Assembly (NCBI RefSeq): GCF_003207815.1
Contig: NZ_NKTX01000001.1
Coordinates: 1 to 64,000 of the forward strand
Source: Komagataeibacter oboediens
GTDB lineage: Bacteria > Pseudomonadota > Alphaproteobacteria > Acetobacterales > Acetobacteraceae
Direction of reading: 5' to 3'
DNA length: 64,000 nucleotides
Shown: piece after piece, positions 1,324 to 6,212 of the stretch
How positions within the stretch are numbered: position 1 is the stretch's first letter
Layout of the letters: every line of letters starts with the position of its first letter
Notes under the pieces: generated by a model
Seen by the model: only the letters and a program-made list of their open reading frames with translations
Database searches by the model: none
What the model was told of the DNA's origin: nothing
Translations under genes and position numbers: made by a program

Positions 1324-1625
1324 TGGTGTCCGCGGCGGGATTCGAACCCACGGCCCCAGGATTCGTACCACTTCGGCTTTCACCGCCGCCATAGGGATAT
1401 GGCGTTCGTGGTCTGGACTGTCCCTTCACCATAAACCGCATGCGGTTGACAGGTGCTGCCCATCCAGTCTCTACACCTTGCCGGAAAACCGGCCTTGGCT
1501 CGGGATTGGCACGGCATTTGCCAGAGCGTTCCCCGAATTTGAGCAGATCCGCCACGTGGTTTCCCGTCGTGACGCCCAATTGCAAACCAGGAATCCTGTG
1601 CTCTATCCGGCTGAGCTACGCGGAC
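1324..1625 (-). tRNA. tRNA-Arg(CCT), interrupted by a group I intron
   Basis: Exon 1 (1625-1589, 37 nt) holds the 5' acceptor strand GTCCGCG, a D-arm with GCTC/GAGC and the 5' half of the anticodon arm, ending ..CAGGA-TTCCT. Exon 2 (1363-1324, 40 nt) starts AA-TCCTG and holds the variable loop, a T-arm with TTCGAAT, the matching CGCGGAC strand, discriminator A and an encoded CCA. Joined, the anticodon loop reads TTCCTAA, giving anticodon CCT and a perfect 77-nt cloverleaf. The intron sits directly after the third anticodon base. Without splicing the gene would give no functional tRNA-Arg(CCT). Confidence 0.95.
1364..1588 (-). ncRNA. Group I self-splicing intron (IC3-like) in the tRNA-Arg anticodon loop
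   Basis: The 225-nt intron follows a U at the 5' splice site and ends in G, as group I introns do. On the minus strand it shows, in order: P2 arms CGTCACG/CGTGGCG closed by a GGGAAACC (GAAA) loop, TCAAATTCGG, CCGAGCCAAG, the P7-side block GGTGTAGAGACTGGA, then ATGGTGAAGG and CAGTCCAG, and a GTGAAAGCC loop near the 3' end. These blocks follow the order of the Azoarcus tRNA-Ile intron as I remember it, which supports subgroup IC3. P1 probably pairs exon CCT with intron GGG at positions 12-14. There is no homing endonuclease frame. Confidence 0.92.
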
Positions 1626-1698: not shown

Positions 1699-2718
1699 TT
1701 AATGCCGCCTGCGCATCTGTTGCGCCTGTGCGCATAGCCGGGCGATATGGCGCAGGCACAGCACGACATCGGGGCTGCCGGTCTGTTTGCATGCCAGTTC
1801 CAGTGCCTGCGTGTCTTCAGCCGCACGCAGCAGGGCGTTGGCGGACCATATCATCATGGCCTGACCGAAGCTGTCGGTGCGTTTGAAAAAAACGGGGGGG
1901 CGCAACTGCCGCATGGCGTCCGCCCGGCTTGCCCCGCCATCCACCGCAATCCGTGCCCGCCGCAGCCGGTGGATGTGTGACAGCAGCACGCGTGTCAGGG
2001 CGACCGGGCTGCTGCCATCGGTGGTCAGCGCCCGTTCCGCGGCCGCATCCGCCGCCCTGCGGTCACCCGCCATGGCGGCAAAGGCCGCGTCTTCCAGTGA
2101 TACGCCCGCCGCGTCACCAATGCACGCGCGCACGTCCTCCATTCCCAGCCTGCCGCCCGCACCGGCGAACAGGGCCAGTTTTTCAACTTCACTGCGTGTC
2201 GCCGCGCGGTCGGGGCCTGCACGCTCCACCATCCACCCCAGCGCATCAGGGTCGATCCCGACGTTCTGCGCCGATAGCATCTGCCGGATGGCGGCTTCCA
2301 GCGTCCGTCCTTCTTCAGGGTAACAGCCGATCACGCCGCACTGCCTGTCCTTTTCCGCAAAGGCGCGCAATTTCGAACGCGAGGCAAGGCCCGGCGCTTC
2401 CATAACTATCAGTGTATCGGATGACAGTCCCAGGCTGTGCTGCAATGGGGCAAGCAGGCTGTCACCCGCCTCGCGCAGCCAGACCACGCGCCGCCCCCCC
2501 GTCAGGGCAAGGGCGGTCGTTTCCTCCTCCAGCCGGTCATGGTCTTCGCGGCCCAGAATGGCGACCCGGAACGGATCCTGCAGGTCCGCGCAGACCGCTT
2601 TCGCCGCGGTTGTGGCCCGCTCACGAATCAGCCCCGCGTCATCCCCATGCAGGATAATGGCCCGCAGCGCACCCGGTGCCTGCAGGGTGGCATTGACGGC
2701 GCGGGCATCGATCTTCAC
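1699..2718 (-). CDS. holA: DNA polymerase III subunit delta
   Basis: A 339-residue protein of the usual HolA length, the clamp-loader subunit that opens the beta sliding clamp during replication. The N-terminus (MKIDARAVNATLQAP, then ALRAIILHGDDAGLIRERA) is the normal delta opening, and a C-terminal helical collar domain follows. The start ATG at 2718 overlaps the lptE stop in ATGA form, indicating translational coupling. It is the last gene of the DUF3576-leuS-lptE-holA run, an order common in alphaproteobacteria. The call rests on overall family resemblance and context; HolA has no short catalytic motif. Confidence 0.9.
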   Translation of the reverse strand: MKIDARAVNATLQAPGALRAIILHGDDAGLIRERATTAAKAVCADLQDPFRVAILGREDHDRLEEETTALALTGGRRVVWLREAGDSLLAPLQHSLGLSSDTLIVMEAPGLASRSKLRAFAEKDRQCGVIGCYPEEGRTLEAAIRQMLSAQNVGIDPDALGWMVERAGPDRAATRSEVEKLALFAGAGGRLGMEDVRACIGDAAGVSLEDAAFAAMAGDRRAADAAAERALTTDGSSPVALTRVLLSHIHRLRRARIAVDGGASRADAMRQLRPPVFFKRTDSFGQAMMIWSANALLRAAEDTQALELACKQTGSPDVVLCLRHIARLCAQAQQMRRRH

Positions 2719-3575
2719 TCGTTCGCGCCCCCGCCGCCTATGCTGATACCGGAGGAGGGGGATGTATCGACATCCGGGGCCATGGAGGTGCCCGAACCGC
2801 TCCGGTTGCCGCTGGTGGATTGCGGCGTGCTGTCCATGGGGGCGCTTTGGGTGGACAGGCTGCTGCCTTCGTTGTTTTCCTCGTTCAGCTGGGAATCGGT
2901 CCGGCCCGTCGCCAGTGCGGGCAGGCCATCGGCGCCCGGCTGCTGGGATGGCATCTGGTTATTGGGATTTACGATGCTGTTGGGATCGACATAGCGCGGC
3001 TGGTTCTGGTCCGCGACCGACCCGTCCACCGCAGGGCGGGCATGGGTGCGGAACCACGTCGCTACCTGCTGGGTGACCTGTTCGGCCATGTTCTTGGCGA
3101 CACGGGTGCGCACGGTTTCCAGGTTCAGCGTCAGGGCGAAATACTGTTCATATGTATTGTTCACCCCATCCACGACCGAGGCATCTCCCCCCGCCAGCAT
3201 GTGCGGGTTGTCCCCCAGCGTATAGAGCTGCCAGTGGGCGAAGGCGGTGGTCCGCGTGCGGCCACTGGTATTGTCCGCGTGGATGTCCACCGCTTCGTTC
3301 ATGATGTAGGTGCTGATGCGCAGTTCGTAACCGGTCGGGTCTTCCGGCCCCGCCCCGCCCAGATCCTGCTGCAGGAACTGGCGAAGCTGCTGGCCGTACC
3401 GTTCCTGGATGATCGGTACGTACACCTGTTTCAGTTCCGCCACCACATTGGTCACGGTGGGTTTGCCATCCGCGCCGATATGGGTTCCCGTCGTCTTGTA
3501 CATGGGCGAAAAGCCGCATCCTGCCACCATCAGCAGGATACCCAGCACGACAGGATGACGGACGGGATGCGCCAT
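2715..3575 (-). CDS. lptE: LPS-assembly lipoprotein LptE with a long C-terminal extension
   Basis: A 286-residue outer-membrane lipoprotein. The signal peptide (MAHPVRHPVVLGILLM) ends in a lipobox VAGC, so Cys20 is the likely lipidated residue. The next part (GFSPMYKTTG, VYVPIIQERYGQQLR, YELRISTYIMNEA) matches the alphaproteobacterial LptE domain that plugs the LptD channel for LPS export. The LptE domain normally ends near residue 170. Here about 115 further residues follow, rich in Asn, Gln, Pro, Ser and Gly (for example NPNNQMPSQQPG, SGNRSGSGTS). It begins 3 nt after the leuS stop and overlaps holA by 4 nt. Confidence 0.9.
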   Translation of the reverse strand: MAHPVRHPVVLGILLMVAGCGFSPMYKTTGTHIGADGKPTVTNVVAELKQVYVPIIQERYGQQLRQFLQQDLGGAGPEDPTGYELRISTYIMNEAVDIHADNTSGRTRTTAFAHWQLYTLGDNPHMLAGGDASVVDGVNNTYEQYFALTLNLETVRTRVAKNMAEQVTQQVATWFRTHARPAVDGSVADQNQPRYVDPNSIVNPNNQMPSQQPGADGLPALATGRTDSQLNEENNEGSSLSTQSAPMDSTPQSTSGNRSGSGTSMAPDVDTSPSSGISIGGGGANE

Positions 3576-3578
3576 GGG

Positions 3579-6212
3579 CTATTTCGCAACCACGAAGTTG
3601 ACGATCCGGCCCGGCACATGGATGCGCTTGACGATCCGCGCGCCATCCAGCAGGCGCGCCACGTTGGGTTCGGCTTCCGCCATGGCGATGACCCTGTCCG
3701 CGGGCATGTCCGGCGGCACGGCGATCGTGCCGCGCAGCTTGCCCATGATCTGGACGGCGATGGTCAGTTCGTTCGCCTTCAGCAGGTCCGCGATGGCGAC
3801 CGGCCACGTGCGGTCCACCACCGGCTGGCCGCCGGGTTCAAGCAGCGCCATCATCGTTTCCGCCTGATGCGGCACCATTGGCGCGCACAGCAGTGCCAGC
3901 GTGGTGGCCGCTTCACGCCGGGCGAACGCCATGCCGTCCTCGCCTGCCGTCTTTTCCGCATCTGCCATGGCGGAGGTCAGTTCATGCAGCCGCGCCACGG
4001 CCACGTTTACACTGAAGGTTTCCAGCGCGTCGGTCACCGCCGCGATGGTGCGGTGGGTGGTGCGGCGCAGGGCATCCGCGTTGCGCGATACACTGGCGGG
4101 ACACGCGGCACCCGCCGGGGTCTGTTCCGCCACCGTGCGGACAAGGCGGAACAGGCGCTGCAGGAAGCGCGATGCCGCGGCAACGCCGGATTCCGTCCAT
4201 TCCATGTCGCGTTCCGGCGGGCTGTCGGACAGTACGAACCACCGTGCCGTATCCGCGCCAAAGCGTTCGATGATGGCGACGGGTGCCACCGTGTTGCGCT
4301 TGGACTTGGACATCTTTTCCACGCGACCGATGGTGACGGGCGCACCATTGTCGCGGCGCACGGCCCCATCGGCCCTGCGATCGACCTCCTCGGGATACAG
4401 CCAGTTGCCGTCCGCGTCGCGGTAGCTTTCGTGGTTGACCATCCCCTGCGTGAACAGCCCGTTGAAGGGTTCGTCCACATGCAGGTGTCCTGTCTCATGC
4501 ATCGCGCGGGTGAAGAAGCGGGCATAGAGCAGATGCAGGATCGCATGTTCGATCCCGCCGATATACTGGTCCACCGGCAGCCAGCCATCAGCTGCGGCAG
4601 GCACGGTGGGCGTGGGCGCGTGCGGCGCGGTGAAGCGGGCGAAATACCACGAACTATCCACAAAGGTGTCGCAGGTATCGGTCTCGCGCACGGCGGCCTT
4701 GCCGCATTTGGGGCAGGCCACGTGCTTCCATGTCGGGTGGTGTTCCAGCGGATTGCCGGGGCGGTCAAAAGTCACGTCCTCGGGCAGCTTTACCGGCAGC
4801 TGGTCATCGGGCACGGGCTGCGCGCCGCAATCCGTGCAGTGGATGACGGGAATGGGGCAGCCCCAGTAACGCTGGCGCGAAATGCCCCAGTCACGCAGCC
4901 GCCAGTTGACCACACCCTGGCCGATTCCCATGCCTTCCAGCCGGGTGATCGCTTCCTTTTTTGCCGTCTCGGTATCCAGACCGTCCAGAAAGCCGGAATT
5001 GAACAGCGTGCCGTGGCCATCACATGCCCTGTCGGTCATGGTGAAGGTCGCGGCCTCGGCCCCCGGTGGCAGGATGACGGGGGTGACCGGCAGGTTGTAC
5101 TTGCGCGCGAAATCAAGGTCGCGCTGATCACCGCACGGGCAGCCGAATACCGCACCCGTCCCGTAATCCATCAGCACGAAATTCGCGATCCAGACCGGGA
5201 AGGATTTATCGGGCATGAAGGGGTGGCTGACGCGCAGCCCGGTGTCGAAACCGCGTTTTTCAGCGGTTTCGATTGCCTCTTCCGACGTGCCCAGACGCTG
5301 GCATTCGGCAATGAATTCCCCGGCCGCCGCGTTTTTGGCCGCGACCTTGGCCGCCAGCGGATGGTCGGCCGCAATGGCCAGGAAGGACATGCCGAACAGC
5401 GTGTCGGGACGGGTGGTGAAGACCTCGATCGAATCAAGGTCGATATCGAAACCCGTGGGCGGTTCATGCAGGGCGAAACGGACCCTTGCCCCTTCGGATC
5501 GGCCAATCCAGCGTTCCTGCATGGTGCGCACGCGTTCGGGCCAGCGCGGCAGGGTGGACAGGCCATCAAGCAGCTGCGGGGCGAATTTCGTGATTTTCAG
5601 GAACCACTGCGACAGCTTCTTCTGTTCGATCAGCGCGCCCGAACGCCAGCCCCGGCCATCGACCACCTGCTCGTTCGCCAGCACGGTGTTGTCCACGGGA
5701 TCCCAGTTGACCCAGCTTTCACGCCGTTCAACCAGGCCGCCCTTGAGCATGTCGAGGAACAGCTTCTGCTGCTTGCCATAATATTCCGGCAGGCAGGTCG
5801 CGATCTCACGGTCCCAGTTGAATGAAAAGCCCAGCCGTTTCAGCGTTGCGCGCATGGCGGCGATGTTGTCCATCGTCCACTTGCCCGGATGCACCCCGCG
5901 TTCGCGCGCGGCATTTTCCGCCGGCAGGCCAAAGGCGTCCCAGCCCATCGGGTGCAGCACGCTGAAGCCACGCGCACGCTTGTACCGCGCCACCACATCG
6001 CCCAGCGTGTAATTGCGCACATGGCCCATGTGCAGCTGTCCCGACGGATAGGGGAACATCTCCAGCACATAATATTTGGGCCGATCGGCAGGGGGGACAT
6101 CGGGGACATTGAAGATGCCCGACGAAGCCCAGCGTTCCTGCCACTGCGGCTCGGCCGTGTGGAAGTCATAGGCGGGGGTGGCGCTGTCCGGTGGGGTGCT
6201 GGTTTCGGTCAT
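3579..6212 (-). CDS. leuS: Leucyl-tRNA synthetase
   Basis: An 877-residue class Ia synthetase that charges tRNA-Leu. The ATP-binding HIGH signature is HMGH at residues 61-64 within [17 protein letters not shown]. The second signature is KMSKS at about residue 632. Between them lie the CP1 editing domain and a zinc-like cysteine cluster ([15 protein letters not shown]). The length is normal for bacterial LeuRS and no frame disruption is seen. The start ATG at 6212 places the N-terminus about 20 residues before the family core. It stands between the DUF3576 lipoprotein and lptE on the same strand. Confidence 0.97.

Follow-up and report, generated by a model that had tools for sequence, protein, structure and literature searches.

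A group I intron in the tRNA-Arg(CCU) gene of Komagataeibacter oboediens and related introns in other tRNA genes of the Acetobacteraceae

The split tRNA-Arg(CCT) gene and its surroundings

The window analyzed here, a stretch of 64,000 nucleotides from Komagataeibacter oboediens, carries on its minus strand (1625-1324) a tRNA-Arg(CCT) gene that consists of two halves and a 225-nt intron (Table 1). With introns allowed, ARAGORN reports a tRNA-Arg(CCT) of 77 bases with the notation 'ttcct-Intron-aatcc' and an intron length of 225, and when the two halves are fused in silico, the identical cloverleaf is recovered with the intron option switched off, its T stem containing one wobble. These boundaries place the insertion point directly after the third anticodon base, as is characteristic of the alphaproteobacterial tRNA-Arg(CCU) intron family. 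In full agreement with a first-pass annotation of the sequence, the 77-nt cloverleaf, the identity of the host tRNA and the insertion site are thus borne out, and the core motifs quoted there, i.e., GGTGTAGAGACTGGA, ATGGTGAAGG and CAGTCCAG as well as the GAAA loop in P2 and the terminal G, were all located in the sequence. The gene had also been predicted to be easily missed by standard annotation. Plain ARAGORN, run without introns, finds no tRNA across the 64-kb window and Rfam at its gathering thresholds yields no match in the window, so that default annotation would indeed miss the tRNA-Arg(CCT) gene.

Upstream and on the same strand lie leuS (3579-6212, assigned by Pfam) and two open reading frames without Pfam match. 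The protein encoded at 2715-3575 is 98% identical to a protein from K. intermedius, and this reading frame was used to retrieve 17 loci from named species of Komagataeibacter and Novacetimonas and from Gluconacetobacter entanii. At the corresponding downstream place of all 17, ARAGORN finds a tRNA-Arg(CCT) gene with an intron of 225-235 nt. A homing endonuclease was considered and rejected: the two open reading frames overlapping the intron (94 and 114 amino acids) have no Pfam match and, when they were scanned together with four neighbors, leuS alone gave one, in line with the earlier statement that the intron carries no endonuclease. Scans for promoters and terminators revealed nothing, the matches being at or below shuffled expectation, and an early search with an ill-constructed sequence pattern was set aside together with its one match, which was equaled by one control match.

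Table 1. Features of the split tRNA-Arg(CCT) gene (window positions and strand), and introns in other tRNAs (L numbers denote individual introns)
Feature	Position or introns	Strand	Remarks
5' exon of tRNA-Arg(CCT)	1589..1625	-	37 nt, anticodon CCT at its end; ARAGORN with introns
Group I intron	1364..1588	-	225 nt, final base G; ARAGORN, RF00028 match, covariation in 63 relatives
3' exon of tRNA-Arg(CCT)	1324..1363	-	40 nt, including encoded CCA; ARAGORN with introns
AUU, possible P10 partner of 3' exon AAU	1578..1580	-	96.3% of cells pair, zero double changes
Guide GGG, pairs with exon CCU in P1, U-G at splice site	1575..1577	-	invariant in 63/63 rows; complementary in 91/91 Arg(CCT) introns
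P2, GAAA loop 1563-1560	1551..1573	-	outer helix: both-side changes in 5/6 pairs
P3 (1546-1541 with 1461-1456), encloses P4-P6	1456..1546	-	both-side changes in 3/6 pairs, 100% of cells paired
P7 (1469-1465 with 1420-1416), pseudoknotted with P3	1416..1469	-	5 pairs invariant in 63/63 rows: consistent, covariation silent
P8 and extension	1427..1455	-	both-side changes: P8 3/4 pairs, extension 5/5
P9 region: outer helix and two hairpins, second with GAAA loop 1381-1378	1367..1412	-	both-side changes in 13/16 pairs
Asn-GTT introns	L066, L067		Acetobacteraceae
Thr-GGT introns	L096, L104, L110, L151		Acetobacteraceae
Thr-TGT intron	L138		Acetobacteraceae
Arg-TCT introns	L100, L101, L106, L182		Acetobacteraceae
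Leu-TAA introns	L086, L088, L107, L111, L122, L145, L172, L174, L178, L184, L185		Acetobacteraceae
Leu-CAA introns	L087, L109, L113, L177		Acetobacteraceae
Lys-TTT intron	L098		Acetobacteraceae
tRNA species in the proposed radiation	Arg-CCT, Arg-TCT, Leu-TAA, Leu-CAA, Thr-GGT, Thr-TGT, Asn-GTT, Lys-TTT, Lys-CTT		loop positions 33, 34, 35, 36

Group I identity and conserved fold of the intron

The Rfam model RF00028 matches the minus strand over 1594-1405, from its first to its last position, with 34.3 bits and an E-value of 8.1e-7 in 1 kb, which is significant by E-value though the score lies below the curated Rfam cut-off of 50. Lack of a significant model score, one of the refuting outcomes listed in the first-pass annotation, hence did not arise by this measure. 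A search of the whole draft genome (3.78 Mb in 278 contigs) returned a single match up to an E-value of 1 (E 7.2e-7).

For comparative analysis, an alignment was built from 63 Arg(CCT) introns whose mutual similarity is below 92% and whose length does not exceed 266 nt, with eight exon bases retained on each side. Counted on a P1-P9 structure that was written for the window's own row, a procedure that favors the structure of that row, standard pairs occupy 95.6% of the 4133 pair cells (shuffled mean 80.9), 41 of the 66 pairs undergo a double change at least once in the alignment (33.7 after shuffling) and 690 cells exhibit such changes (shuffled mean 213.7). Not one among 500 shuffles reached the observed value in any of these three measures, and pairing falls to 31-41% when partners are slid by one to three columns. 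The P3-P9 core, including the pseudoknot between P7 and P3, is conserved, with changes on both sides in P3, P8 and P9. P1, P6 and P7 are invariant across the alignment and hence outside the reach of covariation, while in P4 five of the six pairs are invariant and the remaining one is not formed in 11 rows.

Folding energy is not distinctive (z -1.16; 28 of 200 shuffles fold as well or better). The free fold of the window RNA contains P2, P5, P6, P8 and P9 largely or wholly and five of the six pairs of P4, and none of the six pairs of P3 or the five of P7. With an ordinary z and a free fold lacking these two helices, folding energy was dropped as evidence.

A U-G pair at the 5' splice site, a guide sequence and a terminal G, all typical of group I introns, were found as well. 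The count of 91 complementary guides was obtained from an intron-only alignment, comparing the columns under the window's GGG with the last three exon bases. Splice sites of the relatives had been searched with a preceding U and a final G required, a caveat that applies to this count, to the guides of other tRNAs and to the U-G pair alike. Taken together, the E-value of the RF00028 match and the pairing and covariation of P1-P9 in 63 relatives bear out the group I identity proposed in the first-pass annotation. Its size, its tRNA host and its GAAA loops would fit subgroup IC3, to which the intron may belong.

Occurrence of interrupted and intact tRNA-Arg(CCT) genes

The split gene is present in all 19 genomes of the genus that were searched, with 91-100% identity. 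Within the Acetobacteraceae, RF00028 matches occur in 119 of 397 genomes, and a pattern combining the 5' exon with the guide is found in 149 of the same 397 (reversed control: zero matches), including 92 of the 93 genomes in which RF00028 detects an Arg(CCT) intron. With strict filters, RF00028 missed two of 14 Komagataeibacter genomes. The curated RF00028 cut-off is passed in just 23 of the 397 genomes versus the 149 with the exon-plus-guide signature, and the default Rfam threshold thus hides most of this intron group.

A second intact tRNA-Arg(CCT) gene, proposed earlier as the sign by which the interrupted copy could be recognized as dead, was not detected among the 46 intact tRNAs of the draft assembly, whose arginine anticodons are TCT, CCG and ACG only, and the assembly also lacks the 15-mer of the intact anticodon arm. 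Some tRNAs that must exist, e.g., Ile(GAT), are also missing from the assembly, so that the absence of a second CCT gene is not absolute. The codon AGG can be read by tRNA-Arg(UCU) via wobble and a tRNA-Arg(TCT) gene resides in this genome (L005); the interrupted gene might accordingly be dead, with an inactive intron in a tRNA that is no longer needed. We consider a dead gene very unlikely, however, since its exons give a full cloverleaf, compensatory changes show that selection acts on the fold within the family, the gene is retained with high identity in all 19 genomes of the genus, and the intact 15-mer is absent from every one of the 80 genomes tested out of the 93 with an Arg(CCT) intron. 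The exact intact arm occurs in at least 76 genomes and, among the matches listed, these overlap with the 149 pattern genomes in a single case. This genome (G368) contains the signature of an interrupted Arg(CCT) gene as well as an exact intact arm (G368:C23:663 and G368:C35:6222) and is possibly a mixed assembly.

Inheritance of the intron

The first-pass annotation had suggested that the intron was inherited vertically or mobilized by reverse splicing. In a phylogeny of 136 introns inferred by maximum likelihood, all 91 Arg(CCT) rows fall to the same side of a branch supported by 99/99, with the window's intron next to those of its own genus. This was the second of two trees and the kinder one: three long-branch rows had been left out and two rows added, and its bootstrap had not settled. 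The rows concerned are an AT-rich Leu(TAA) intron (L190) and two Asn introns, which in the first tree (137 rows) have an end branch of 4.99 and a branch of 4.15, respectively. In that tree L190 falls inside the Arg clade and the Arg label requires two changes.

Two Arg(CCT) introns from outside the Acetobacteraceae, L247 and L251, both belong to the Arg(CCT) clade. L247, which stems from another family of the class, is located beside an intron from the Acetobacteraceae (100/79), and this nested position suggests transfer between families. Its source genome (G446) encodes a tRNA-Arg(CCT) with a 224-nt intron and exons resembling those of Acetobacteraceae, and transfer of the whole gene is possible. 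Judging from this copy, horizontal transfer probably also occurs.

Regarding the window's own intron, the view that it was acquired recently, through horizontal transfer or reverse splicing instead of descent, could appeal to the nesting of L247 and to the title of Paquin et al. (1999), which mentions horizontal transmission. Such an acquisition is nevertheless highly improbable, as the intron is found in all 19 genomes of the genus that were searched, occupies the same neighborhood in 17 of 17 loci and groups with its own genus in both trees. Of the inheritance originally suggested, the vertical component is supported within the genus by the 19 genomes and the 17 loci, and further by the Arg clade of the second tree, and is to be supplemented by probable transfer.

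Related introns in other tRNAs

Including the window, 122 RF00028 matches from Acetobacteraceae were assigned to hosts: 93 reside in Arg(CCT), 11 in Leu(TAA), four each in Thr(GGT), Arg(TCT) and Leu(CAA), two in Asn(GTT) and one each in Thr(TGT) and Lys(TTT), with two left unassigned (L092, L097). Ten of 121 matches initially had no clean tRNA, and eight were placed by hand (L094, L109, L111, L174, L177, L185, L070, L105). Two of these, L070 and L105, are cut by a contig end and Ns, were placed by eye and were excluded from guide test and trees; L098 and L113 were re-read by hand. L097 is Leu-tRNA-like with an unusual loop. Three genomes contain two RF00028 matches each, i.e., G285 (L086, L100), G079 (L098, L099) and G024 (L096, L097), residing in different tRNAs where both are readable.

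In a search of the class, 31 of 385 alphaproteobacterial genomes matched RF00028. Of 30 matches from outside the Acetobacteraceae, 26 were examined and assigned to Leu(TAA) (15), Lys (4) and Thr(GGT) (2), or left unassigned (L187, L189, L191, L198, L210); several of these hosts were chosen by hand although ARAGORN scored another reading higher. L189 (G607) is a group I match of 73.8 bits with flanks that are not tRNA-like. A further search yielded matches in 12 of 298 genomes, comprising three Acetobacteraceae, the introns L247 and L251, the latter being the 27th outside-family match, and seven that did not appear intron-like in sequence.

The introns in other tRNAs are inserted after loop position 33, 34, 35 or 36, and their guides mostly fit the new exon. 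Complementarity was found in 44 of 48 such introns, compared to a mean of 31.0 and a highest value of 38 in 10,000 shufflings among these 48; hosts had been assigned by hand with guide matches in view for 29 of 139 introns, 28 of them among the 48. The four misses concern two Asn, one Leu and one Thr intron. In these the correct triplet adjoins or is near the columns, and misalignment is the likely explanation, though they are still counted as misses. For three Leu(CAA) introns (L109, L113, L177), the sole reading found with a seven-base loop places the 5' splice site after C34, which would give a C-G instead of a U-G pair.

That the insert is instead a spacer of another type, which proteins excise from the split tRNA or which stays in place, would accord with its RF00028 score below the curated cut-off and its ordinary folding energy, and is scarcely credible given that Arg(CCT) relatives in the Acetobacteraceae reach up to 71.6 bits (L068), above that cut-off, that P1-P9 are maintained in 63 rows and that the guide fits the exon in other tRNAs too.

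The group I intron in the window may represent one branch of a wider alphaproteobacterial radiation, with Acetobacteraceae foremost, that spans about nine tRNA species and in which the guide was re-tuned each time, a proposal in which our confidence is evenly divided. If it holds true, introns would repeatedly have switched their host tRNA, perhaps by reverse splicing and subsequent adjustment of the guide, and this recurrent process could be read from genomes. Among the literature matches listed, drawn from a coverage that leaves most subscription journals outside, we recognized no report of introns in alphaproteobacterial Asn, Thr, Lys or Leu tRNAs.

Proposed splicing and comparison with known introns

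Model boundaries, conserved fold, complementarity of guide and exon, and presence in all genomes of the genus that were searched are directly supported. The insert is almost certainly a small group I intron that lacks a reading frame for a mobility protein, interrupts the sole detected tRNA-Arg(CCU) gene and has been inherited mainly by descent; very probably, it removes itself from the transcript. The precursor would be transcribed as one piece, and the intron is predicted to fold into P1-P9 such that the GGG guide holds the exon end CCU with the U-G pair at the splice site. By analogy with known group I introns, an external guanosine would then cleave at the 5' splice site, the released exon would attack behind the terminal G of the intron, and joining of the halves would give a normal 77-nt tRNA reading AGG in this cell. 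For the main part, it would have descended from an ancestral Arg(CCU) intron of the Acetobacteraceae.

Taken alone, the gene amounts to an ordinary annotation fix for an AGG-reading tRNA that is invisible to plain ARAGORN and to the default threshold of Rfam. As a marker it is nonetheless of value: many acetic acid bacteria have retained the intron without an endonuclease, and other tRNAs of the family harbor its relatives, which makes it suitable material for asking how introns of this type pass from one tRNA to another and what maintains them. Their occurrence in several tRNAs is more interesting than the intron in the window itself, and further effort belongs there.

In Azoarcus, tRNA-Ile carries a small group I intron in its anticodon loop. 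The intron described here shares the small size and the anticodon loop location and differs in the tRNA and in the bacterial class, a likeness drawn from description. Structures of the Azoarcus tRNA-Ile intron are mentioned in PMC3984707. Group I introns are also reported in tRNA-Ile2 of Acidovorax and Burkholderia.

Among the closest counterparts is the alphaproteobacterial tRNA-Arg(CCU) family, which is named, with Agrobacterium, in the titles of Reinhold-Hurek and Shub (1992) and Paquin, Heinfling and Shub (1999), both cited in PMC7717549. It shares with the intron in the window the tRNA, the kind of intron and, according to PMC7717549, the flanking CCT, and is likened to it by description. 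The same publication states that BbgpI of Bartonella bacilliformis splices in vivo and in vitro, and splicing of this orthologous kind of intron supports splicing in K. oboediens. Like the gene studied here, BbgpI interrupts an unannotated tRNA-Arg(CCU), and tRNAscan-SE finds its host only after removal of the intron; its splicing was established by experiment (PMC7717549), whereas that of the intron in the window is predicted.

Within the Acetobacteraceae, footnote c to Table 1 of a publication from 2015 (PMC4596401) records one tRNA(Arg) as being interrupted by a 'sequence homologous to a group I intron' for at least five rows, namely Asaia bogorensis, Acetobacter pasteurianus, Gluconobacter oxydans, Gluconacetobacter diazotrophicus and Komagataeibacter medellinensis, the last name being deduced from reference number and abbreviations. 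These split genes share family and tRNA amino acid with the gene in the window, and in one case even the genus. In the part of that publication available, the record is a table footnote that gives no anticodon, structure or distribution. The observation made in the first-pass annotation is confirmed and its interpretation supported: the intron is an ordinary member of a long-described family that had already been noted in this genus.
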